A DNA stretch of 64,000 nt from Caprimulgus europaeus (Eukaryota > Chordata > Aves > Caprimulgiformes > Caprimulgidae): positions 558,001-622,000 of the forward strand of contig OU015539.1 in the NCBI GenBank assembly GCA_907165065.1. The letters run 5' to 3'. The notes below the pieces were generated by a model, which was not told the origin of the DNA, searched no databases, and saw nothing but the letters and a program-made list of their open reading frames with translations. The stretch's first letter is position 1. Each line of letters opens with the position of its first letter. A program made the position numbers and the translations under genes. Of the stretch, positions 3,801 through 64,000 are shown in pieces.

Positions 3801-6800
3801 CGCTGCCCGTTTGTGATGGCTGTGGTTCCTTTGTGCACAGTACCTTACAGTGACCATGTGAATCTCCTCCCACAGCCATAGCTGGGGGTGGTCCTGCTCT
3901 GGGAGGGAGTTGGGGGTTTTGATGACTGTTAAGACTGCTGATACAGTCTTGTGCTTGGGCAGAGGGGGGGTAGCAGAGCTATTGGGACTCTTGCTTTGAA
4001 ATGGGTGTAGGTGTAGCCAAGTCTGTGATCTTTCCATCCACCTCTGCTCAGCAGAGAAAGTTCTCTTGGGTTTGTTTTAATTTTGATTCTTTCTCTGCAG
4101 ATCTTGAAGCCAGAGAACGAGAAGCCCAGACCCATGAGAGTGAAGAGGAGGAGATCAGGATAACGAGATCATTGGAACAAGAGGTAATGATAAATTATTC
4201 CATTTCTCTGCTGCTTTGGAGAAGAATTGCTGAAAGTCTTTGCAACCACAACACAAACCACGTGATGATGTAGCAAATCTATAGCAGTCTGTCAGCCTTT
4301 TGGATTAATGAGTCCTGTGAACAGAGGTGTGTAGAAGGCATCTTGTAGCAGTCTGGCAAATGTGTCAGTCTCAGGGGTTTCTTTTTTTCTGCCCTTTTCC
4401 TTTTGCATAGCAGACAATAACAGCTCATTGGTTATATGCTGGCTGGTAGGGACTGTGTCACTGTGAACGTGAGGGGTCTGATTTTACAAGCACTGGAGCT
4501 GGCACAGGGGAACTAGCAGGAGGGTTGCCCCAGGAGATGGGTATAAGACAGAATCTGTCCTTGGCAGTCTTTAGCTGGCATGGAACCGTGCCCTCAGACA
4601 CCTGTACTGTCTCACCTCCGCCGCAGATCATACGCCTGCGGGAAGAAGGCTCCCGTCAGCTGGAGGAGCAGCAGAGACTCATTCGAGAGCAGATCCGGCT
4701 GGAGAGGGAGCAGCGTGTCCCAGGTGAGAGCAGAGAGGGAGCAGCGTGTCCCAGGTGAGAGCAGAGAGGGAGCAGCGTGTCCCAGGTGAGAGGGGAGAGC
4801 AGCGTGTCCCAGGTGAGAGGGGAGAGAGAGCAGCATGTCCCAGGTGAGAGCGGAGAGAGAGCAGCGTGTCCCAGGTGAGAGCAGCGAGAGAGCAGCGTGT
4901 CCCAGGTGAGAGGGGAGAGAGAGCAGCGTGTCCCAGGTGAGAGGGGAGAGAGAGCAGCGTGTCCCAGGTGAGAGCAGCGAGAGAGCAGCGTGTCCCAGGT
5001 GAGAGCAGCGAGAGAGCAGCGTGTCCCAGGTGAGAGCAGCGTGTCCCAGGTGAGAGCAGCGTGTCCCAGGTGAGAGCAGCATGTCCCAGGTGAGAGGGGA
5101 GAGCAGCGTGTCCCAGGTGAGAGCGGGTGAGGCTGGAGCCCTCAGCCCAACTGCGTGCAGGTGGGGCTCCAGCTCTTCAGGCAGAGCTGCCGTGCAGGTG
5201 CAGCCTTCTGACTTGGGCCCATTGCCGTGTGCAGGATCCCACTTGGCACCTTTTTCAGGGCTGAGTTAAGCCTGGTATTTCAGTGGGGTTGGTTTTTCAG
5301 GGCTGAGTTAAGCCTGGTGTTTCTGTGGGGTTGGTTTTTCAGGGCTGAGTTAAGCCTGGTGTTTCTGTGGGGTTGGTTTTTCAGGGCTGAGTTAAGCCTG
5401 GTGTTTCTGTGGGGTTGGTTTTTCAGGGCTGAGTTAAGCCTGGTATTTCTGTGGGGTTGGTTTTTCAGGGCTGAGTTAAGCCTGGTGTTTCTGTGGGGTT
5501 GGTTTTTCAGGGCTGAGTTAAGCCTGGTGTTTCTGTGGGGTTGGTTTTGTATACATGGCCTGCTGCTCCTTTTCTGTCAGTGTTCTAAAGCACTGAACCT
5601 GGATGGTCTGGTGTGGAGCTTCACAGTTAAGCTGGAGGGAACCTCAGGTCCTGCTCATCTGTCCCAATGAAAGCAGTCATGTTGCAGACTCAAAACAGGG
5701 AATGATTCAAGTTTGCACAGAACAGTGGTTGTCAGTGGGTTACTGCTTCTGTTTCCCCTTGCAAATTCTCAGTACTTATCACCCTGAAGAGGCTCAGTGT
5801 GGAGAATAAAGTTCTGGTTAGTTTATGGTTGCTGAGGCTTTACTTTCTGGAACTGGGTTCTCTCGTGTTCCTTGGCCATCCACAGTCTTCACCCCAGGTT
5901 TGTACCAAGACCAGCCACATCTGTCAGGAAATGAGCGACACACTGAACTGGAGAACATCTGCAGTCTGTGCTGCTGTGCAGTGGGTGGTTACTGTGTTTG
6001 AAGTTGTCTCCCTCTAATTCCCAGGGGCTGTTCACTAGGCTCCTTCATACTGGAGGGGATGAGATATTTCCAGAATCCCAGAACCTCATCCTTTGATATT
6101 CCTGAACCTCATTCCCATCCACATGTCTCTCTATTGAATTGCCTTTTAAAATACTCTGTATCTGAGTGAGCTTAAAATACAGTTTTATATTCCAAAAAGC
6201 TCTGTTCTTCTGAAAACGAAGTAGAGTGCTGTTCAGGGTTGAGTTCAGTGGGAAGATTTATTGTCTCTTGCTTCTTACCCCTTCCATTCTGGCAGAGGCT
6301 ATGGTGTAAGGTCTGTTATTTTCTCACAGGAAAAAATGTTAATGAGTTAAAAAAAAACAACAAACCCTAACCAAGTAATAAAAAAAAACCCCAGAAAACA
6401 AGCACCAGAGGTCCAGATGCAGAAACTCTTTTTGGGATCACTGGGAGTTTCCTGTATGACTGTAAGTCATTCAGCCCACCCTACCCTTTCTTAACTTAAT
6501 TTCCCATATCAGGAATTGGGGAGAACACTGAGTATTTGCTTAATGAGATCTTTGAGATCCTTGCAATGAGAGCACATCCTTTTGACATATTTAGTCTTGG
6601 GTTATACTCTCCTTTTTTTTTTGTCTACCCTTAATTTTTCTACATTCATTCCCAGCAGCACAACCCTCTTGCAGGGGAAAAGTGTCCCAGGATCTACCAG
6701 GTCTCGTGGTTGTACCTTTCCTTTGCTGTGCCTGCCTTCTCAGGGTGAATTTTGTGCTCAATGCTCTTTAGCTGAGGAGTTTTCACCCATATCCTTTCCA

Positions 6801-9800
6801 TTTTTTTTTTTTCTTTTCTCCTCTTTAGGCAAGCAAGAAAGAAATGGAGCAGAAGGCAAAATAACTCCCAAACTCAAAGTAAGACATCCTTATAAAGCTG
6901 GGTTTTGGTGAAAACTGCTAGAACATTATGCAGCCTTGGAAAACAGAAGGGATGCTTCAACTCTGCTGAACTGGCATGACCCTTTGTACAGTGGAGGTGA
7001 AGTTCCACTCCTGTCACTGTCTTTAAAATGCCCTTCCTCCCTCACCCTTTTCTCTGCTGTCTGGTCCCAATTTTTGGGCCTGAAATTGAGTTGTCTCTGT
7101 TTCAGGCACAGGAAAACATCTCCTTATTACCCTGATACAGCCATTAGTGTGCTTTCAAATACTCTCTTTTTTTATTTCAGTGAGCAGTGTTTCTCCCTGT
7201 TCCCCCAATAACTTGTTCCCTTTGCACATTCTGGTGTTGCAATCACTGTCTTGGCAGTTCTGGGAGTGTAGCTGTAAATAGCAAACTGGGTTGCTGTGCA
7301 GGTGGCAGGAGCTGTGTTGAATGTGGCAACACGTGTTTGAATGGACAAAACTGACTTGTCATATTTATTTCCCAGCTGAAATGGAAATGTGGGAAGGAAG
7401 ATGAGACGAGAGGGGGATACTCAAGAGATGTTCTGCTGCAGATCCTGCAAAAGGTCCTGTCTGACACTTTCCTACTGCTTGATCTGCCCCTGCTCTCAGT
7501 GGACAGTAGGAGAGGAAGGATAGTAAATTCTGGGAAGCTGCATATAACCCAGAGTGACTCTTGGTTGTGTCCTCTGCTGTCCAGCTTTCAGGCCATTTTC
7601 AGAGCCCAGCAGCATGATCCATTAGCTGTGAGCAGTTCCCCAGCCAGCACCTCTGTCTCATTCCCAGCGGGGACTCCTGCAAACTCCTCCCACTAAGTGA
7701 TTTGTGCCCTGTGTAAAGGTGAGGCTGGCTGTGTGGTTGTGGTGCCTGTTTGCCTTCACTGAAAGTGCTACACATCAGCTGCTGTGGGAAGTTCAGAGAC
7801 AGGAACAGACAAGCCTTTGATCTGATTAATCTCAGTGTGTGGGCTTTATTTTCCCTCTGTGCAAGTGTGTCCTGTGGCTCTGAGCTGAGCAGCCCTCTTG
7901 CACTGGGGCTTGCTGAAAGCAAAGTGTGTAGCTCCATGCCTCCCCAGAATGATTTCCCGGAGGGACAGAAAGTGTGACAGGTTGGGATCAGTAAAGCACC
8001 ATCCAGGACAGAAAGGGTGACAGCTAAAGCTTCATGTCTGTGAGAACACATTGACTCTGTGTTTGTTCCATAGAGGAACTTGGCTTCTCTTCTGGGTCTG
8101 TAATTAGCTTCTCTTTCTTCCTTTGTCTCACCAGTACGGCGATGTGCTCAACCTGTTGATCTCGAGCAGGAGGACGGGGAGCGCAGTCGTGGAGTTTGCT
8201 ACGGTTAAGGCTGCTGTAAGTCTGGCAGAGACCCCAGCTGTGTGTCGTGGAGAGTGGGCAGGAAGGGCTGTTGCAGAAGGGGAGGATTAGCAGACTGACA
8301 GCCTGGAGATGCTGCCTTGTCATTAAGGCAGTGGAGAAGGGTAATGAGAGTCTGAAGGTGCAGATGCATGAAGGGAGTGGCAAAGCTGGAGGCATAAACC
8401 CAGAGCAGATCATGCACATAAACAAGGAGGCTGTGCCTGTCAAAGGCTGAGGAAAAGACACTGCTTTGACAAGCAGGCACTGAGCCATTTCATCAGCTCT
8501 CACTGAAGGTGAATTACCCATTGTGGAGATGGCTAAAGGAGTTTTAGAGGTTGTCTGGCATTTGCAGTTTAAAAGAAATCAAAACGTCTTGACTCACTGT
8601 GAGTTATAACAATTCCTGTGGCTGTGGAAAGAGAACTCATCAGTACTCTTAATTTTAGTAGTTCCCTCAACTTAAAGTTGCACTGTACAAGTCTCTATTC
8701 CTTGTCACTTCTTCTTTCCCTCATAATACAAGTAATTAAAAAAACCCTAAATTTTCTGTAACTCCTCAAAAGTACTGGCAGTGACATCTATGCTTGATGC
8801 AGACAGGGAACTTAAAGGTGCCTCTCACATAGGGCAGCTGTGAAATCTCCATTGTTTGTGTCCTACTTGGCCTTGATGCCAGGCAGGAGATGGAAAAACT
8901 TGTGACTCTTAGTGACCTGTGAGGGAGTGGGGTCTGAAATTCAGGTGGTGATGGAAGAATATTTTCATTGGTAGGAGATGGCTGTGAAGAATGAAGTTGG
9001 CCTGATAAATAATCCTCTAAAGATTTCCTGGCTGGAGGGCCAGCCCCAGAACAATCCCAGCACTGTTCTTTCTGACAGCAGTAGTCAGCCTAGGACTTCA
9101 CAGGTAAGGAGACACAGGCTGCTGTGATTTAAATCTGTTTCTAGAGCAACCTAAACTGAACAGTGTGGTTTGCATTTATGGTAAGGTACATTGGTTCCCA
9201 GAAGAGCTGAAAAGAAGCTCTTGGTGAAAGGCCTGCCTTCCTGATGAGCCTTTTTGTGCTGAAGCAGTGGCTTTTTTAAAGGACCTTTTGCCTGAGTAGC
9301 AGCACACTGAGAACACAAGGTGTTTGGGTGACTGGATCTTCACACAATCTCACTCTCTCTAACAAGTGAAAACTAAGGATGTTCCTTGCTCAGCCCAAAG
9401 CCTCTAGTGCTACTCTTCTGGAATTTTTTCTAACATACTTTGACTGTGGGAATCCTCTGGCTGATAGCTGTGTGAAATGGGTCTCCTGGGAGGTTTTTAT
9501 GGAGAGGCTTAGTTATTGCATTCACAAGAGGATGGAGTTTCAGTGCTGCAAGGAAACCTATATTCTTAGGGTCTGCAGGAGGGAAGAGAAAGCAATATCA
9601 AATTAAATATCCTTGTGCAGACCTTATTGCCTGCTTTGGGTCCTCTTCACCAGTGTGGTTACTTTGAGTGCAAGGGAAATCTCAGGGAAAGGCAGTTGGA
9701 GAATCATAGCCCAGGAGCTGAGCAGATCTCCACACACAATGTAGCAGCAGTGAGGGTCCTGCAGGCACAGCAGATTCAGAGGTGGGCAGTGTTAGAAGGC

Positions 9801-12800
9801 AAATTGGGGAAAAAAGCAGAATCTCATCTGGTTTATTTGAGTATCCCTCAGGAGAGAGAGTGAGAACTGGTTCTGAAGTGCTCATTCATCCCTGAGGGTG
9901 CAGGTGGAGCTCGGTGGTGGATTCTTGCCTCTCTGGGTTCAAAAGCCCTGGCTTTTGAGGGAGTTTATCTTGCCTTGTTTCTATGGCCAAAGCTTGTTAG
10001 TGTGGAACTGCAGTGTCTGCCTGCTGGGAAGGGTTGGCTTGGTGGAGCAGCAAGGGAGGGCAGGCTGAAGCAGCAAGTGGTGCTCCTGCTGTGTGGAGCT
10101 GGTGCCTCACCTGTGTCCAGCACAGCCTTGTCAATCCCATATTAGCTCTGAAACAGTGAGGAGTTGTGGCCAGTGACTTGCACCCTTTCCCAAGCACTGC
10201 ACTGCTGGTGCTTGCCTGTCCTTTCTGCTGCCTTTGTGTGGAAGCAGTTGCAATTTCTTTGGTTGCATTGCAGCCTTACTGTCCAGGCTAAGATCTCCAA
10301 GCTGCTCTGGTTACCACTTTCCCTAGTTCCTACTCCAGACCCTCCCCAAATCCTGCTGCTGCTTCCTCTGGGATGCTTCCAAAATCTGTGATGTGCTAAT
10401 ATCTTCTCTCAACTTTGTCCTCCTGCTCTAGACTATGCAAAGGGAGCTCTTTCAGCTCTCTTTTGCCACTGCCTCAACCTGCTCCCTGCCTCATCCTTTC
10501 ATATCCAGTCTGGCTTCTCAGCCATCAGGGTCCACATTCTTGCTTTCAAACTGCACTGACCTCATTCTGGTTTAAGCTGCACTCACTTCCTATTTGCTGC
10601 TCCCTCTGAATTGCTCCTATTTTTGTCTGAATCCACCCCCATGTTTGCTCCCACTCTGCGAATTCAGCTCCTTCCCTGCTCTGCTTCAGAAAACAGCCAA
10701 AGACCTGCAGTGTTCTCATGGCAACACCCTCACTGCTCATCCCCTCAGAGCTGTGTCTGCTCCCTGCCTGGGGTCATCAGCCAGGGGCTGTGCACCAAAG
10801 TCTTCAAGGAAAGGACAGCCACACAGTAACCAGAGCAGGGCAGCTCTGGCAGCAGCTCCCAGGTGAAGCCAGGCTGTCAGGAGGCAGTCACTTGCAGGAC
10901 ACCTGCCTCTGCAGTCTTGGTGGCTTGTTTTCTTCTACAGCAGTGGGTGCCCATTGTCCAGCAGTTCCTGGAGAGCTGCTGAAGCCAAGCAGGTGAGTTA
11001 TACTTGAACTGCAAAAGCCAGGGTTACCCTGGGCTGTTTGTGAGCAGTGACTGTTTGATTGCTGCAGCTCTGAATGGTTCACAGCACAGCAGCTGTACAG
11101 TGCTGGGCAGAGCCGATTTTGCCACTACAACAGCGTGAAGCACTCACTTCTGGGGAGGTCTCTGTACCCTCAGTCATGGGATCTCGGTGCCAGTGCTCCT
11201 CATTCATTTGAGGCCATTCATTCAGCCCTGCTGAGGTGCTGAGAAAAGCCTTGTCTGGCACTCCTGCATCTTTTCTGAGCTCCTTTGAGGTTTTGTGGAG
11301 TTCGATTCCTATTATCATCTTACAGCCTGGTGTGAATCTGGTAGGTTAAGAGCTGCCTGTGCCTTCTCTGAAGTGTCTCACCTTGCTGTAGCCAGCTTCC
11401 AAAGCTCGTGCTTATCTGGGGGTGTGGAAGTTTTATTTCTTATTTTTCAAAAAGAGCCCTAGAATCTAATCTAGGTATGAACAAGGTAAAAATTGGTCAC
11501 CCAGTAGTTTCTGCAGTGTCCTTCTAACTGCTTGCTCTGACACTACCTAAAATATTCTGAGCCTGGCAGAGCCCTTCCCACCACCCAGCTCACGGGGTGA
11601 AGAGCTGTTCATTTCAACACTGGGTCCTGACCTGGGCTGTGTGCACTCTCCTCAGGGGAAGATAAAGCACCAGCAGCTCTAGCCTTCTCCCAGCCCAGGA
11701 CAGCAGAGCTGCACTGCTTCCCCACCCTTGGGAAAGCCTGGAGTGCCTGGATCTTGGTCCCTGCAGAGAAGGGACCTGTGCTCTTGGTGCCTGGGCTTTT
11801 TCTGGCTTGCTACCAATGAAATGAGGCAACAAGACAGTTCCAGTCACAGATACATTTATTCTTCCATATCTGTACAGCTGATAGATCAGTGCATGCTTCA
11901 AGCAGCAGTTATCTGGAGAAAGTTCTTCTCCTGCTAGTAGGATAAATAAACTGTTGCTGTATTACGAGCCTACATGGATGCTTACCTGATTCCAGGCTGG
12001 AAGTGCCAACTGCACTTGAGTTAGGGGAAAAGAAACCCACAAAAAAAAACCAAAAAACAAAGAACAGCTTTGATTTTTCACATCCAGACATGGTGGGAGA
12101 AGAAACACGAGTTTGTCTCTTGACCCTTGCCGTAGCTCTGGCTCTGTGGTGCAGTGCTGCTGTCTCCTTGCAGGCTGCCTGCTTATCCACAGGTGATGTG
12201 TGCCATATCCCTTTGTGTCCGTGTTCCAGTGTCACAACCACAGCCCCAAAATAACCAGTCTTGCCAAACAATGCCATTCTTCCACGAGGAGGAGATGCAG
12301 AGTCACAAGTGGGCAATTCCCAGGTGGAGAATGGAAACTTGGCCATGAGGTTCCAGCAGGCAGGGCTCCCATCTGAGCACGGAGCGTGTGGACTCTGCTC
12401 CGAGGGACTCCTTGGCAGGGACGAGGACAGTCTGTGGCGGGTGAGATGAGAACAACAGAACAGGCCACACACAACAGGAGTGCTGCAGTGTCCTCCCTCC
12501 TGCTGGGACTAGAGAAACTGGCAGCAGCAGTAAGGACGTGTGCTGTGTTAAATGGTAAATACCTTCAAATGGCGTAATCTCTTGGGTTCTGTTTCCTGAG
12601 GGTCTGCAGAACATCCTCAAGAAGGGAGAGCCCCAGATCCACTTTGAAGGACAGGAAGGGGTCAGACAGGTCAGACAGAGTGGTACCATTCTGGGAACCT
12701 GTCTCTGAGGTCCCGTAGTCTGTAGCCTGGTCCTTGTGGAATTGAGTTTGAGTGGCTTTGTGGTATTGATGAGAAGCACCAGAAAAGGAGATGTCAGAGT

Positions 12801-15557
12801 GAGAATCTGTGTGATCGATGATGTTGGGGCAGCTGGAACTGTCCAGGTAGAGCCGGGGAGGCTTGGGAGGTGCCTGTGCCTTGGCTAGGTTTTGCTCACT
12901 CTGACAGGACAGGTAGTCAGACTTGTCCTTCAGATCCCTCAAGCATTCCCTCTTCTGGCACTGTCCCTCACTGTCCAGAGTGTGGCTGTTCTGGTTCAGG
13001 ATGATGACTTGGTTGCCCAGCTTTTTGTGTCTCCTGAGTGAGAAGCGTCTGAAGAACGTTGTGGACTTAATGGACCCTCTCCGCCAAGTATCCATGCTGG
13101 TGAAGGGCAAAGAGAAGGGAACTGCTGAGTCTTCCCAGTCAGGTGTTGGACTGATGTTGCAGGATCAGCAGCAAGCCACGCAACAGGAACAACCTCTTCC
13201 TTCCCAGTTCCTGTAGCTGGAAGGAAAACAGAGAAGCTGGTATTGCAGGAAATGCAAACTCCACACTACGTCCCCGTGTTAAAGAGCAGTTGGCCTGTCT
13301 TGGATATCAAGGAGTCTCCTTCTTCAGGGGAGAGGAATGGCAGTGTCTGAGCCTGTTCAGTCTGTGCTGCAGGAAGAAGCTGGTGAAGAACAGCAAAGGC
13401 ACACAGTCACCATGAGAACAGATTCCATCTAGAACAGAAGGGCACTTTGGTGCCATGGTAACCAGCCACCTTCATGGTGAGGGCACAGTATAAAAATCTC
13501 AGTGGGTGGTTGGGAAGGGAGACGGTGACTCAGTCCCACTGAAGGAAACCGAAGAAATGCAGTCAAATGGAAACCTAAAGAGCAGCAGAAGTCGGATGTA
13601 AAAGACAAACGTTAGGAAAACTGAATGCAGAATAGACTCACGCTGTGCTGGAGCAGCTCCTGAGTCCAGCAGGCAGAGGAGAAGCTGTGGAGCACCTGGA
13701 GAACCGTGACCACCACCTTCACCAGGGTGCTGGGACGTTGGGAGAAGCAGGTCCAGGGACGATCCAGCCAGGTTGGACCCGGAACACGAGAAATCCCCGA
13801 TGCCTCCTTCTGTTCATGTGCCTCCTGTCACCGCTTCCCCGGCTGCAGCTCCTTGCGCGGATGTGTTTGTTTTGAGCCAAGCCCTTGCTGAGTCAGCCAC
13901 GTCAGGAGCTGGGTTTGCACGATTGGTGATTGCCAGGATTGCAGGAAGTAGGTGTGTGGAGCGGCAAAGCATCAGCCCACACTCTGCCTGCGGAGCAAGC
14001 CGGCTCCCTCAGAGGCCCCCCGGCTGCTGGAGAGCTGGCAGCCTGAGTTCTGACCTGTGGCCCATCTTGGATCAGACTCTGTCTTCTCTTGGTGCTCTCC
14101 CTTCTGCCCCTTGTGATGGCTTGTTGTGTCAGCAGGGCTCCCAAATGAGGCTGGAAATAATCTCTTGCCTGTTTTAAATTGAAATCCAGAGCGTGAGGTG
14201 GTGATTCAGGTTTGTAGGGGTGATTCATCTGCATGAGTCTCAGCTAGGCTATTTCATTCCAACGAGCAGATGACAGTAAGTGTCTGTGGTTAGTGGCCAG
14301 GAGCTTTGAGGAAGCCTAGTTCTGCTGCTGAAGGCTGATACAATCTGGTGCTTTCTCAGACACTGAAGATCTGTGCTGCAAGTACTGAAGGGTTATTTCA
14401 TTCCTGCAGCTCCTAAAATACCAATTATGGCGTATTAGTCCCTTAATTTCCTGGTCTCAGATTCTCATCTGTTGTGGGCTTCTGGTTTGTCCTCGCAGCT
14501 AGATGCTGCCGTTGGAGGAGCCACTTTGCTGGCACGTGATAACAAATTTGCACTTGCCCCATTTTCATGCAGAATCTGATTTAGCTATTCTATTGCTTGT
14601 TCATCCCTTCCATCTTCTATTTAAGATGTCCTTAAATCACTGCTAAGTAGTTCCCAGGAAAATGAGTGCGAGGTTGGGTTTTTTTTTCCACCTTCTGTCA
14701 AGATGCTTTTGTTTCTACCTGAACTGTCAAGCAAATGAGGTGGCTGTTTCCAAGCATTGCAGTGCTTTGATACATCTGAAATAGTAAGGCCACCTACTAG
14801 TGTTAGATGGCTTTGGAAAGCAGAGTGCCAACACCACCCCTCTGCTCGGTGACAGCAGCTCTCGGCGGCTGCCCACGTTCATTAGGCAGAGTCTGCAGTC
14901 ACCGCTCGGTTGATGTGACAGTTGCTGCCACACACAGCAGAAACTCTCTTTTATCAGGTTTGGGAACATACCTGGTGGTTTTCTTACTGCAGTCACTTCC
15001 ATGGCTAAACCACAGCAAGGTTTGATTTGTTGTGGGGTTTTTTTGTGGGATGACCTTTGTAACGGCTGAAGCGTTCGCTGGGCTTTGTGCTCCAGTGTTG
15101 TACTTGCAGAGCCAGCCTGTCATCCAGAATAACCCTCCACAGCCAGGCAAGCTGTGCCTCTCCATCCAGCCTCCTTGTGAGCAGTTTGTAGCTGGAGCAG
15201 CAGGAGGGTAACCCAGGCTCCCTGCCTGTCCCACTCTGTCTCCTCACTCAGCCTGTCACAAAGCTGGCTGTGTTCTCTCGGCCAGGCAGCGTTCACACCG
15301 TACCTCATTTCTGTGGGGCTGTCCTGCTGTGAACCACCTTCCTGACTGGAGCATGCACATTGTGGTTGTGGTTTATGGAGAGGGCCTGGGGTCTGTGCTG
15401 TCCTTGACAGGCTGTGTTTGCTTTCTGCTCCCAGGCATCGGTGGTGTCGGAGCGGGATTACGAGAGCCTGGTGATGATGCGGATGCGCCAAGCGGCAGAG
15501 AGGCAGCAGCTCATTGAACAGCTCCAGCGGGAGGACGAGGAGGAGTCTCACACCTAG
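811..15557 (+). CDS. DNAJC17: DNAJC17, DnaJ homolog subfamily C member 17 (5' partial)
   Basis: Coding exons seen: 811-880, 2064-2122, 3625-3712, 4101-4183, 4627-4723, 6829-6878, 7376-7453, 8135-8215, 8975-9103 and 15435-15557. All junctions are GT-AG and phases join to 285 codons plus TAG. The first exon (about 26 residues in human, start of the J domain) is outside the window. In order the protein shows the rest of the J domain with its HPD motif, a long charged coiled coil rich in K, E, R and Q, an RRM, and a conserved C-terminal helix ([20 protein letters not shown]). The family is nuclear: an Hsp40-type cochaperone linked to pre-mRNA splicing. Human DNAJC17 is 304 aa; this would be about 311. 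Antisense C15orf62 sits in intron 10 and GCHFR converges downstream. Oddities: a minisatellite at the exon 6 donor and a weak exon 8 donor. Identity rests on near-continuous similarity to the remembered human protein. Confidence 0.96.
2064..2122 (+). CDS. DNAJC17: DNAJC17 exon 3 (end of J domain)
   Basis: 59 nt between acceptor ATTCCCAG and donor GTAAGG. It encodes [20 protein letters not shown], helix III of the J domain. Phase closes to 0. Confidence 0.95.
3625..3712 (+). CDS. DNAJC17: DNAJC17 exon 4 (basic linker)
   Basis: 88 nt between acceptor TTTGGCAG and donor GTAATA. It encodes [19 protein letters not shown] and the KRKKVKL stretch, a highly basic helix matching human and a plausible nuclear-localisation region. 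Confidence 0.95.
4101..4183 (+). CDS. DNAJC17: DNAJC17 exon 5 (acidic coiled coil)
   Basis: 83 nt between TTCTCTGCAG and donor GTAATG. It encodes [18 protein letters not shown] and SLEQE. The alternation of acidic and basic runs matches the family's central coiled coil. Confidence 0.95.
4627..4723 (+). CDS. DNAJC17: DNAJC17 exon 6 (coiled coil; donor duplicated in tandem)
   Basis: 97 nt after acceptor CCGCCGCAG. It encodes [19 protein letters not shown] and then LEREQRVP. The first donor, CCCAG|GTGAGAG at 4724, gives the correct phase (1) for exon 7. The last ~20 nt of the exon plus ~10 nt of intron are then repeated 14 more times, so downstream donors of equal strength exist. The in-frame TGA at 4756-4758 argues that the first donor is the productive one. 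Confidence 0.93.
4694..5126 (+). repeat. Minisatellite of the exon 6 / intron 6 donor, 15 copies
   Basis: The unit is about 31 bp: GAGAGGGAGCAGCGTGTCCC then AGGTGAGAG. It duplicates the end of DNAJC17 exon 6 with its donor. GT positions are 4724, 4755, 4786, 4813, 4844, 4875, 4906, 4937, 4968, 4999, 5030, 5050, 5070, 5090 and 5117, giving spacings of 31, 27 or 20 bp. Confidence 0.95.
5258..5548 (+). repeat. 42-bp minisatellite with acceptor-like units, 7 copies
   Basis: Near-identical 42-mers contain GGCTGAGTTAAGCCTGG and end in GGGGTTGGTTTTTCAG. An AG follows a T-run at 5258, 5300, 5342, 5384, 5426, 5468 and 5510, exactly 42 bp apart. Because 42 is divisible by 3, one frame stays open as a 14-residue repeat; this is not evidence of coding. 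Confidence 0.95.
5549..6828 (+). other. Rest of DNAJC17 intron 6
   Basis: Ordinary intronic sequence with short A- and T-runs near 6350-6390 and before the exon 7 acceptor. No other feature seen. Confidence 0.6.
6829..6878 (+). CDS. DNAJC17: DNAJC17 exon 7
   Basis: 50 nt after the pyrimidine-rich acceptor CCTCTTTAG, donor GTAAGA. It encodes [17 protein letters not shown], aligning with the human linker before the RRM. Confidence 0.93.
7376..7453 (+). CDS. DNAJC17: DNAJC17 exon 8 (start of RRM)
   Basis: 78 nt after TTTCCCAG. It encodes [19 protein letters not shown] and LLQILQK, the first strand and helix of the RRM. The donor is AAG|GTCCTG, a poor match to consensus beyond GT, but phase and homology leave no better boundary. 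Confidence 0.92.
8135..8215 (+). CDS. DNAJC17: DNAJC17 exon 9 (RRM core)
   Basis: 81 nt between TCTCACCAG and GTAAGT. It encodes [20 protein letters not shown] then FATVKAA, the RNP-containing half of the RRM. Confidence 0.95.
8975..9103 (+). CDS. DNAJC17: DNAJC17 exon 10 (end of RRM and Ser-rich linker)
   Basis: 129 nt (43 codons) between acceptor CATTGGTAG and donor GTAAGG. It encodes [20 protein letters not shown], closing the RRM, then a Gln/Ser-rich linker ending SSSQPRTSQ that diverges from human. Confidence 0.94.
11855..11860 (-). terminator. C15orf62: Candidate C15orf62 poly(A) signal
   Basis: TTTATT on + reads AATAAA on -, about 700 nt past the C15orf62 stop. It implies a 0.7-kb 3' UTR. 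Other A/T-rich candidates were not excluded. Confidence 0.4.
12565..13095 (-). CDS. C15orf62: C15orf62 homolog, single coding exon
   Basis: An uninterrupted 176-aa ORF. The chosen ATG (MDTWRRGS) aligns with the human start METWRKGS and has a good context (CCAGCATGG); the frame is open five codons further but without an ATG. The N-terminus (1-27) is basic and amphipathic with FFRRFSLRR, consistent with the predicted mitochondrial targeting of the family. A conserved APPKPPRLY...SSSCPN block lies at about 75-91. The C-terminus (139-176) is the best conserved part, with [20 protein letters not shown] and a terminal NPRDYAI. That block resembles the C-terminal homology motif of CDC42 effector (BORG) proteins, which is inference only; function is unknown. 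As in human, the gene is nested antisense in DNAJC17. The middle (95-138) is Ser/Thr/Gln-rich and divergent. Confidence 0.92.
   Translation of the reverse strand: MDTWRRGSIKSTTFFRRFSLRRHKKLGNQVIILNQNSHTLDSEGQCQKRECLRDLKDKSDYLSCQSEQNLAKAQAPPKPPRLYLDSSSCPNIIDHTDSHSDISFSGASHQYHKATQTQFHKDQATDYGTSETGSQNGTTLSDLSDPFLSFKVDLGLSLLEDVLQTLRKQNPRDYAI
15435..15557 (+). CDS. DNAJC17: DNAJC17 exon 11 (C-terminus and stop)
   Basis: 123 nt after acceptor CTGCTCCCAG, ending TAG. It encodes the strongly conserved [20 protein letters not shown] helix and an acidic tail (EDEEESHT). It is separated from exon 10 by 6.3 kb that contains C15orf62. Confidence 0.96.
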
Positions 15558-60532: not shown

Positions 60533-62095
60533 TCAGGGCTGGGGGAGCTCCGGCCGCCTCTGCCGCACGCTGACGGTGAAGGGCCGCGGCTTCAGCGCCA
60601 GCCCGTGCACACAGTCCATGGTGAGGTGCTCGGCCGGGTTGGCGTGGAAGGAGCACTGGTGGAGGAGGATGGCGGTGAAGAGGAAGAGCTGGAGCTTGGA
60701 GAGCTGGTCCCCGATGCAGCGCCGCTGCCCGGCTGAGAAGATCATGACTCTGCCCGCCCGGTCGCGGTCCAGGCACCGGTGAGCGTCCAAGAAGCGCGTG
60801 GGGTCAAAGCGCTGTGGGTCAGGCCACTTACTGCTGTCGTGGTTCACCGACCACTGGTTGATGAAGACCACCGTGTCCTTGGGGATGTGGAAGCCCTCGA
60901 GCTCCACGTCCTCCGTGGTTGCGTGCGGGATGGTGATGGGCACAAAGCTGCTGTAGCGCAGCGTCTCGTAGATGAAGGCTTCCAGGAGGGGCAGGAGGGG
61001 CCGGTCCTCAGCCGTGGGCAGCCGGGAGCGTCCCACCACCCTGTCCAGCTCGGCCTGGAGGTCCTGCTGGAGCCGTGGGTGCTTCAGCAGCAGCAGAAGG
61101 ACCCATGAGAGCGCCGTGGACGTGGTGTCCTGCCCCGCGCCAAAGATGTCGGTCATGGCCCCGTCCACGTCCTCGGGTCCCAGCCCCTTGGGGGCTTTGT
61201 CTCCCCGCTCCACGGTGGCGATCATGATGTCGCTGATGTCGCGGAGGGCGCGTGGGTCGAAGGTCTGGCGGTGCTGTGCCACCTTGGCGCACACGAAGCC
61301 GTGCAGCTCCCGGTTGAGGGCTCGGAAGTCGCGGAAGACGCGGCGCACGGGGTTGGGGAAGCGCAGGAGCCAGGGCAGCACGTCCACCATGCTCCCTGCT
61401 CCCACCGTCTGCCCGAAGCGGTCGTTACGGTCCAGCAGTGCCGTGAACTCGCCGTCGGCGTGGCCATAGCGGCGGCCGAAGCAGAGGGCGCAGAGGACGT
61501 TGGCGTTGGCCACCACCAAGAGCGGGGCGGGCTCGAAGTAGGCGCCGTCCCGGCTGCGCCGCAGGAAGAGCCGGACGAGCTCCTGCGCCTCGGCCGCCAC
61601 GTGCCGCTCCACCTCGGCCGCCGTGGAGCGAGCGCGCAGGGCGGCGTGGGCCAGGCGCCGGCGAGCCCTCCAGCGCGGACAGCAGGACCCGAAGGCCACG
61701 CTGCGCCCGCCGGACACCAGCCGGAAGGACGGGAAATCGGGGCGGCCGGCGAAGCGGGCCCCCAAGCCCACCAGCGCCCGCCGGATGACGGCCTCGCCCG
61801 TGAGCACCACGACGCGCCGGCGGCCCAAGCGCAGCTGGAAGACGGGGCCGTAGCGTTGCCCCATCTGCCCCAGAGCCAGGTGGGGCAGGGGGCCCAGCTG
61901 CAGCGCGTTGCCCACCAAGGGCCAAGCGAAGGGTCCTGGCGGGCTCCGGCTGCGTGAAACCCCCCACTCGGACCCGGGGCGGCGGGTCCCGACAAGGAGG
62001 AGGATGAGGAGGATGAGGATGAAGATGAGCGGGATGAAGGACACCGGGAGCAGCAGCCCCGCGGCCGCCCCGTCGGGTCCCCCCGCCCCGCTCAT
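60533..62095 (-). CDS. CYP1C1: CYP1C1-like cytochrome P450, intronless
   Basis: A single uninterrupted 520-codon frame ending TGA. Start chosen at MSGAGGPDG because it is followed by the hydrophobic ER anchor (about 13-36) and has a good context (CGGCCATGA); the frame is open 116 codons further, but that part is low-complexity. Landmarks: PPGP hinge 52-55; I-helix AGQDTT 320-325; ExxR as ETLR 377-380; PQRF 427-430; heme loop FSAGQRRCIG 453-462 with Cys460 as thiolate ligand. It resembles CYP1B1 strongly (for example IPHATT and IPKDTVVFINQWSVNHD). CYP1B1 has an intron in its coding region, whereas CYP1C genes are intronless, so CYP1C1 is the better call. Expected role: ER-bound haem monooxygenase of aromatic and xenobiotic substrates, commonly AhR-inducible. 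Very GC-rich compared with the left half of the window. Next gene is RMDN3, convergent. Confidence 0.88.
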   Translation of the reverse strand: MSGAGGPDGAAAGLLLPVSFIPLIFILILLILLLVGTRRPGSEWGVSRSRSPPGPFAWPLVGNALQLGPLPHLALGQMGQRYGPVFQLRLGRRRVVVLTGEAVIRRALVGLGARFAGRPDFPSFRLVSGGRSVAFGSCCPRWRARRRLAHAALRARSTAAEVERHVAAEAQELVRLFLRRSRDGAYFEPAPLLVVANANVLCALCFGRRYGHADGEFTALLDRNDRFGQTVGAGSMVDVLPWLLRFPNPVRRVFRDFRALNRELHGFVCAKVAQHRQTFDPRALRDISDIMIATVERGDKAPKGLGPEDVDGAMTDIFGAGQDTTSTALSWVLLLLLKHPRLQQDLQAELDRVVGRSRLPTAEDRPLLPLLEAFIYETLRYSSFVPITIPHATTEDVELEGFHIPKDTVVFINQWSVNHDSSKWPDPQRFDPTRFLDAHRCLDRDRAGRVMIFSAGQRRCIGDQLSKLQLFLFTAILLHQCSFHANPAEHLTMDCVHGLALKPRPFTVSVRQRRPELPQP

Positions 62096-64000
62096 GGCCG
62101 TGCTCGCTCTGCTCCGGGGCCGCTGCTCGCAGCCGCTTTGGAGCCGCCTCCGAGGGGGCTGAGCCGCTCCCTCCCCCGGAGCTGAGCACGCCCGGGCCGG
62201 GGGGAGCGGGGGCGGCCCGACGGGGCAGCCGGGGACGGGCAGAGCCGCGGGGAGAAGGGGAAGGGAGGGGGTTGGAAAAGGGGGGATAGAAATGGGCCAG
62301 AGGGGGTTGGAAAAGGGGGAGAGAGTGGAGAAAAGTGGGGGTGGGAAAGGGGGTGCTGAGCTCTGCGCAGGCTGCAGGGAAGGGATCAGCAGCCAAAACT
62401 TATCGAGGTGGAGGAATTTGGATATTGACTTATTTTTCCCCAAAAAACAGGAGCTGCCACCCCCCAGTCACAGCACAGCGATGCTGGGTGTCCCAGTCCC
62501 TCCTGGACCCTCTGGCATTCCCATCCCTGAGCTCCCAGCACCGTCCCAGCAGAATTTGGGCTCCCGGTGGGTTTTGGTGACTCTGGTGATGGACATCGAC
62601 TGATCCTGCCCAGCCCATGGTCCTGAGCATCACCAGGGGCCTGAGGTGAGGCTGCGGGTACCGGCCGGGGTGGGATGCGGGGATGTGGGGATGGGGGATG
62701 TGGGGATGTGCAGCTGCATTTCGGGTTTGCTGCTTTACTGGGTGGCCCAAAATCTCAGTCCCCTTTTCTCCTGTCACCCCCCCAGTGCAGCACCCACACC
62801 TGGACAAAGTCACAGGATCATGAAGGTTGGAAAAGCCCTTTAAGCTCCTTGAGTCCAACCATGAACCCAACACTGACCAGTCCCCACTGACCCCTGTCCC
62901 TCAGCACTGTGTCTACACCACTCTTCCATCCCTCCAGGGATGGGGACTCCACCACTGCCCTGGGCAACCCCTTCCAATGCCTCAGAACCCTTTCAGCAAA
63001 GAAATTCTTCCTCACATCCCATCTCAACTGCCCTGGCCACAACTGGAGCCCATTTCCTCCAGGAGTGCCTGGAAAGGGGTGAAGAGGGTGATTTTTAGCA
63101 GGAGAGGTGGCATTTTTCTCACATGTCACTCAGCGATGTCCCCTGGGATGCTGAAGAAGACCTCACTGAGCCAAACGGGAATAAACAGGGTGCCACTGGG
63201 ATTTCTGTGCCCGCTGTCACGGGGGACACAGCACCATCCCCTGGAGCTGCTCTGCTGCCTCTGGCTGGAGTGAAGCTGGGTGCTGCTGGTGATGCCCCTA
63301 AAGGAAAAACCAGATTTCTTCTGCAAAAGGGATGCTGGTGTTGGTGGGTATAAAAACAGAGCAAGCAGGGGGTGTGGGCTGGGAAATGAGGTGTTTGTGT
63401 CCCCCGAGGAGCTGAAGCCCAGAGCCCTGCCGTGGGCAGACGGGGGGAGCTGGGGGTGATGCCTGGGTCTGCTCCTGTGGGGACCCCGAGCTGTTCCCCC
63501 AGCACTGGGGTTCTGCTGCTGCAAGTTTGTTGTTCCAAGAGGGATTTTTTTTGTCATTATGGCATTTTCCTGTGAAATTGAGATTTCTGGAGGTTGGGTG
63601 AGAGGTGGGTGCTGGGGAAGAGGCATTTTCCTGGGGGATCCCAAGGGAACAGCCACACAAAATCAAATCTCGTGTGTATGTGAGCCAAAGTGCCGGGTGC
63701 AGGGCTGAGACAACACAGTGAGGAGCCTGTCTGTGTGTCCCTGTCTTTCTGTCTGTCCCTCCACCAGCTCCACAGCCCCGGGATGCAGCTCGGCACTGGG
63801 GCTCATGTTGGCTCTCGCGTCTCCTGCTCCAGGAGTTGACCTGGGCGTCGCGTCAGGATCCTGCTGGGCCACGGGAGAAAAACCTTCCTGGGGGAAAACC
63901 TCCAATGTCCTCGTGGCCGCAGGAGAGCAGCGGTACCTGGGGGGACCAAGCTGCGGTTTTCAGGCTCCCCTGACACAGGAGGCCGTTCCCAGCACACGGG
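62096..64000. other. CYP1C1 5' flank
   Basis: GC-rich for about 250 bp, with GGGGGTTGGAAAAGGGGG-type repeats at 62,268-62,350, then ordinary sequence and one CR1. A single GCGTG core (antisense, at 62,187-62,191) lacks the full TNGCGTG AhR-element consensus. No further gene recognised. Confidence 0.6.
62809..63062 (-). mobile_element. CR1 LINE 3' fragment (antisense)
   Basis: Starts CACAGGATCATGAAGGTTGG and contains GAGTCCAACCATGAACCCAA. By eye it differs from the 22,612 copy at only about ten of 230 positions. Confidence 0.88.

Follow-up and report, generated by a model that had tools for sequence, protein, structure and literature searches.

The window analysed here, a stretch of 64,000 nt of Caprimulgus europaeus DNA (contig OU015539.1 of assembly GCA_907165065.1, positions 558,001 to 622,000 of the forward strand), carries a minisatellite of 425 bp that straddles the junction of exon 6 and intron 6 in DNAJC17, where the splice donor of that exon is repeated in 15 identical copies. 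By its sequence this array falls within the definition of a "mirage", i.e., a minisatellite lying over an exon-intron border. We put at roughly 70% the probability that it is a mirage minisatellite whose later donors the cell tolerates as decoys and which regulates little or nothing.

A donor-bearing minisatellite in an intact DNAJC17 gene

The host gene lies on the + strand and runs from exon 2 (811) to a stop codon in exon 11 (15557), with exon 1 outside the window. Conceptual splicing of the ten exons inside the window yielded one uninterrupted reading frame that ends at the exon 11 stop, and the resulting partial protein matched Pfam DnaJ (4.5e-15) and RRM_1 (2.5e-05, starting at residue 164) and had PDB 2d9o, DnaJ homolog subfamily C member 17, as its closest solved relative (3e-43). 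Judged on this open frame, its two domains and its relative, the gene is an intact DNAJC17, as the first-pass annotation had named it; the exon 6 donor at 4723 and the acceptor at 6829 that it had assigned were likewise recovered by conceptual splicing. The features to which the text refers are the following, with the basis of each in brackets:

2122, + strand: end of DNAJC17 exon 3 (conceptual splicing)
4627..4723, + strand: DNAJC17 exon 6, 97 nt, ending in phase 1, acceptor 6.7 bits and donor 10.9 bits (conceptual splicing)
4702..4723, + strand: exonic share of the repeat unit, 22 nt, encoding the tail of ...EREQRVP (TRF and motif positions)
4723..4724, + strand: donor 1, the sole donor of the 15 giving the full-length protein (conceptual splicing)
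4724..5126, + strand: share of the minisatellite lying in intron 6, with another 14 units and a partial tail (TRF and motif positions)
4754..5117, + strand: donors 2–15, identical CAG|GTGAGA, all 14 predicted to lead to a premature stop (conceptual splicing)
4756..4758, + strand: in-frame TGA, ending translation for donors 3–15 or upon intron retention (translation)
5251..5596, + strand: second intron 6 minisatellite, 42-bp unit (about seven copies at 5251–5548), with seven acceptor-like TTTTTCAG|G sites (TRF and matrix)
6829..6878, + strand: DNAJC17 exon 7, acceptor 12.8 bits, the highest score among the ten (conceptual splicing and matrix)

TRF placed the array at 4702–5126, so that the 15 copies and the end at 5126 reported earlier stand and the start moves from 4694 to about 4702. 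The motif CCCAG|GTGAG occurs 15 times within 4719–5121 on the + strand, once in every copy as had been claimed; elsewhere in the window it is absent from the + strand and occurs once on the − strand. The donor 9-mer CAG|GTGAGA (CAGGTGAGA) is the same in 15/15 copies, with the last exonic bases at 4723, 4754, 4785, 4812, 4843, 4874, 4905 and 4936 for donors 1–8 and at 4967, 4998, 5029, 5049, 5069, 5089 and 5116 for donors 9–15. The corresponding spacings are, in order, 31, 31, 27, seven times 31, 20, 20, 20 and 27 bp, in agreement with the three values given previously. The full unit of 31 bp spans the junction, as had been noticed, and its composition of about 20 exonic and 10 intronic nt can be refined to 22 and 9 nt: 9 intronic nt (GTGAGAGCA in copy 1) are followed by 22 exonic nt, with shorter forms of 27 and 20 bp.

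The intronic part comprises nine units of 31 bp, two of 27 bp and three of 20 bp, plus the short partial tail. These 14 units fall into eight distinct sequences (order BBCFGADDAAEEHC), and the nine 31-mers share a mean identity of 93% with five variable columns. The 20- and 27-bp forms could be explained by deletion between GAGAG..GCAG stretches within the unit. Since the exon's own GGGAGC version recurs in the first two 31-bp units only and is absent from the other seven, the exon end is suggested as the founder, and the array was thus probably founded by the 3′ end of exon 6. In 5000 first-order Markov shuffles of 4650–5150 the array 10-mer reached a mean of 0.05 copies and a maximum of 2, against the 15 observed; under a looser statistic, the top count of any 10-mer, 2000 shuffles gave a mean of 2.9 and a maximum of 12, again against 15. 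The GC content of the array (0.65) is exon-like (0.62 in exon 6 vs. 0.46 in the remainder of intron 6). An Rfam search returned no match at the gathering threshold.

Intron 6 also holds the second minisatellite listed above, so that a donor array is followed by an acceptor-like array in one and the same intron. The first of its TTTTTCAG|G sites scored 9.6 bits and the six others 5.6 bits, and unrepeated AGs elsewhere in the intron scored up to 11.9 bits (vs. 12.8 for the true acceptor at 6829). The window as a whole looks dense in minisatellites: merging 35 TRF rows by hand gave 17 arrays (period at least 10) between 4702 and 62710, eight of them at least 100 bp long, which together cover 4.3% of this one window. 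With the array itself counted in the coverage and under uniform placement, 0.8 of the 19 DNAJC17 junctions would be expected inside an array and one was observed, so the position of the array needs no special cause.

As to the rest of the locus, the protein implies an exon 8 donor (AAG|GTCCTG at 7453, within 7444–7461) that scored −0.2 bits, the lowest of the gene's nine; it may reflect an error in the sequence or a variant, or else be a site with unusual support. Within intron 10, an open frame on the − strand (12565–13164) matched Pfam BORG_CEP (Cdc42 effector, 5.8e-08) and is presumably the counterpart of C15orf62. Downstream and also on the − strand, GCHFR exons were located as three tblastn stretches (E values 1e-19, 7e-12 and 0.012), with a human sequence as the query, and one exon matched Pfam GFRP (3e-19). 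Further on, a CYP1-type P450 occupies 60533–62467 on the − strand as a single open frame of 644 residues (Pfam p450, best PDB match CYP1B1) and is, judged by its position, likely CYP1C1. This arrangement of DNAJC17, GCHFR and the P450 fits the order CYP1C1 – FAM82A2 – GCHFR – DNAJC17, which the consulted sections of PMC3229566 describe as common to chicken, mallard, anole and Xenopus (FAM82A2 itself was not identified here); the same sections report that CYP1C1 was not found in quail or zebra finch. A pattern search for DNAJC17-like loci gave 11 matches in viral_contigs and 86 in genome_contigs with none confirmed in either, as expected for collections of viruses and prokaryotes.

Predicted outcome and choice of the 15 donors

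Each of the 15 donors was joined in silico to exon 7 and the product translated. Donor 1 alone restored the full reading frame. Use of donor 2 adds 31 nt and shifts the frame, so that translation stops 262 nt before the last junction, and use of donors 3–15 leads into the TGA at 4756–4758 (368 to 699 nt upstream of that junction), which would also be met upon retention of intron 6. That this TGA stops translation from the third donor on had been recognized in the first-pass annotation; the frameshift makes donor 2 unproductive as well, bringing the donors with a predicted premature stop to 14 of the 15 rather than 13. As a rule, nonsense-mediated decay acts on stops more than 50–55 nt upstream of the last junction, and by junction position alone the transcripts from all 14 later donors are predicted decay substrates.

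The same translations dispose of the earlier proposal that cycling of the frame buffers productive splicing. The copies in the right phase (5, 8, 11, 14 and 15) all lie beyond the TGA, so their spacing is irrelevant to output, and since only donor 1 restores the full frame, the other 14 are unable to substitute for it. A coding expansion via the array was rejected as well, because the normal frame stops within the second copy.

Splice sites were scored with a position weight matrix and not with MaxEnt, so that all bit scores given here serve as a rough ranking only. All 15 array sites scored 10.9 bits (the gene's nine donors range from −0.2 to 11.4), and the exon 6 acceptor scored lowest of ten (6.7 bits, in a range extending to 12.8). 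Good unrepeated donors lie just past the array at 5126 (9.0 bits) and 5160 (8.7 bits). RNA structure was rejected as the selector of donor 1, as its predicted openness was lower and not higher: 10 of the 14 other copies were predicted to be more open than donor 1 at a folding span of 100 nt, and all 14 at a span of 200 nt.

Since introns 5 (443 nt) and 6 (2105 nt) both exceed about 250 nt, exon 6 would be recognized by exon definition. According to the consulted sections of PMC9225289, human exons with both flanking introns above this length and with near-equal donors favor the upstream donor, and in five minigenes that combined a pair of identical donors (CAG/guaagu) with introns of 365 nt, only the upstream donor was used. 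These minigenes paired two donors with a strong acceptor (MaxEnt 12.56), whereas DNAJC17 offers 15 donors behind an acceptor that ranks lowest of ten in our matrix. Without the equal-strength filter, moreover, the majority of events favor the downstream donor in each of the four intron classes described there, and PMC6002489 states that of two comparable donors the intron-proximal one is favored. A study cited in the latter puts the U1 footprint at about 35 nt, in which case at most 8 of the 15 array sites could be occupied simultaneously. Exon definition was judged the better fit because the frame that runs through donor 1 has remained intact, and an intact gene leads one to expect at least some productive splicing from donor 1.

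On the tolerated-decoy reading, slippage or unequal exchange would have duplicated a 31-bp segment over the exon 6/intron 6 border, after which the array would have expanded downstream into intron 6. Exon 6 would be recognized across the exon, its acceptor at 4627 pairing with the nearest donor at 4723, and the 14 later copies would bind U1 transiently at most before being removed inside the intron. Low-level aberrant splicing from the decoys may occur, the products of which mRNA decay should clear, and copy number would be expected to vary. Such an array is probably near-neutral and mostly ignored by the cell, and not a regulator. Counting against certainty are the lowest-scoring acceptor, the exon-like GC content, the lower predicted openness of donor 1, the downstream donors at 5126 and 5160, the rule of PMC6002489 and the unfiltered events in the consulted part of PMC9225289.

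Alternative readings of the array

The first-pass annotation had also suggested that the array titrates productive splicing, which is possible though on balance unlikely. Donors 2–15 would then see sizeable use followed by decay, and the length of the array would set DNAJC17 output, perhaps with feedback by DNAJC17 as a splicing cofactor. The premature stops predicted for 14 of the 15 donors, placed 262–699 nt ahead of the last junction, would suit such a role, as would the preference for intron-proximal donors in PMC6002489 and among the unfiltered events of PMC9225289. Moreover, the consulted sections of PMC5958099 describe an influence of DNAJC17 on splicing efficiency and those of PMC13388955 an exon skipping upon its knockdown. 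However, it is exon skipping that the latter text stresses as the effect of DNAJC17 loss, with alternative 5′ sites tallied in its figure 5B, and the strings "autoregul" and "nonsense" are absent from its wording. The exon-definition minigenes predict donor 1, and the lancelet data in the consulted parts of PMC3087553 and PMC3902484 suggest that regular splicing is undisturbed by mirages; both lead one to expect little decoy use.

The importance of the gene has some bearing on this. Knockout of DNAJC17 is lethal to mouse embryos prior to implantation (PMC5958099), and human cell lines depend on the gene (PMC13388955), yet according to the consulted sections of PMC13388955 viability and splicing are rescued by alleles without the RRM and by alleles without the C-terminal tail. 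With the RRM dispensable in human cells, essentiality alone is compatible with decoy use, which leaves some weight for titration and for a second reading in which the array, via donors 3–15, would supply RRM-less DNAJC17 in amounts tuned by its length, a reading that we consider very improbable. The predicted product would retain the J-domain and coil, 133 residues in the partial protein, add 10 new residues, end about 20 residues short of the RRM match and lack both RRM and tail. In human cells the RRM inhibits activation of HSP70 by the J-domain (PMC13388955), so any decoy-spliced mRNA escaping decay could yield a de-repressed chaperone, and more copies would yield more of it. The sections consulted of that paper contained no allele lacking both the RRM and the C-terminal tail.

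An assembly error, by which the copy number in the window would be wrong or the array absent from the real chromosome, appears improbable. Tandem repeats are frequent sites of such errors; however, 425 bp fits well inside one long read, and the eight distinct units in interleaved order are unlike one block miscopied. A wrong copy number would be likelier than an invented array.

Finally, it is most doubtful that each CCCAG|GTGAG serves as both acceptor and donor, with stepwise removal, or re-splicing from donor 1, restoring the normal message. AGGT is present in each of the 15 repeat units, as in dual-specific arrays, and splicing from donor 1 to a later AG would by sequence logic regenerate the same donor and leave the mRNA unchanged. 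As acceptors, however, the copies scored 1.8–1.9 bits against 6.7–12.8 for the ten real ones, which makes dual use unlikely, and single units of 20–31 nt are below the usual size of a vertebrate intron. A role as recursive splice sites is improbable as well, given that 0/15 copies match Y5+N0-4YAGGT, the motif by which such sites are searched for (intron 6 has a single match elsewhere, at 5897). Tandem AGGT arrays do act as donors and acceptors in UBC, as described in the consulted part of PMC10809524. The DNAJC17 array resembles UBC and VCX3A in carrying AGGT in a tandem unit and hence an array of potential sites, but UBC units are coding and a multiple of three in length, whereas the 31- and 20-bp units found here are not multiples of three and score poorly as acceptors.

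Relation to known border repeats

The term mirage is applied to lancelet Adh3, the globins BflGb6 and BflGb9, and TnC (troponin C), with similar border repeats in PGBD5 (PMC3087553 and PMC3902484, as consulted in part). Units in Adh3 measure 10–72 bp, and the length of the cluster differs from one haplotype to another in a globin, whilst in Adh3 it changes somatically. The DNAJC17 array corresponds to these in that it covers donor 4723 and bears a splice signal, CAG|GTGAGA, in 15/15 copies. It differs in being located in a vertebrate, at a donor, and in having 15 identical donors, as the lancelet repeats described there hold AG/GT in many but not all units. Moreover, the lancelet cases are backed by length variation and RT-PCR, whereas the DNAJC17 array is known from the sequence of one haplotype.

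Tandem duplication of an AGGT-bearing segment is also the classic Rogers model of intron gain, exemplified by ATP2A1 and by 24-bp arrays in fission yeast (PMC4974935, in the sections consulted). The DNAJC17 array is likewise a tandem duplication of such a segment, but its founder is an existing donor, so that no new intron is needed and the old intron begins with copies. Primate-specific genes, in turn, contain internal minisatellites averaging about 30 bp per unit, some of them at exon-intron borders and able to alter splicing (PMC2812944, in part). The location at a border is shared with the DNAJC17 array, although the primate cases described lie in recent segmental duplicates and were reported to form novel introns. 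Among the open-licence papers listed, no earlier report of a DNAJC17 donor array was found.

The array represents a known kind, of which it is a real, clean and probably near-neutral example. Its 15 identical donors behind one acceptor amount to a natural experiment in which the spliceosome has to choose among equal sites; exon definition predicts the first donor and the intron-proximal rule the last, with the full protein obtainable from the first only. The host gene, moreover, is the counterpart of one on which human cells depend. The array would extend the phenomenon named in lancelets to a bird gene, with the human boundary repeats in the consulted part of PMC2812944 as a vertebrate precedent.
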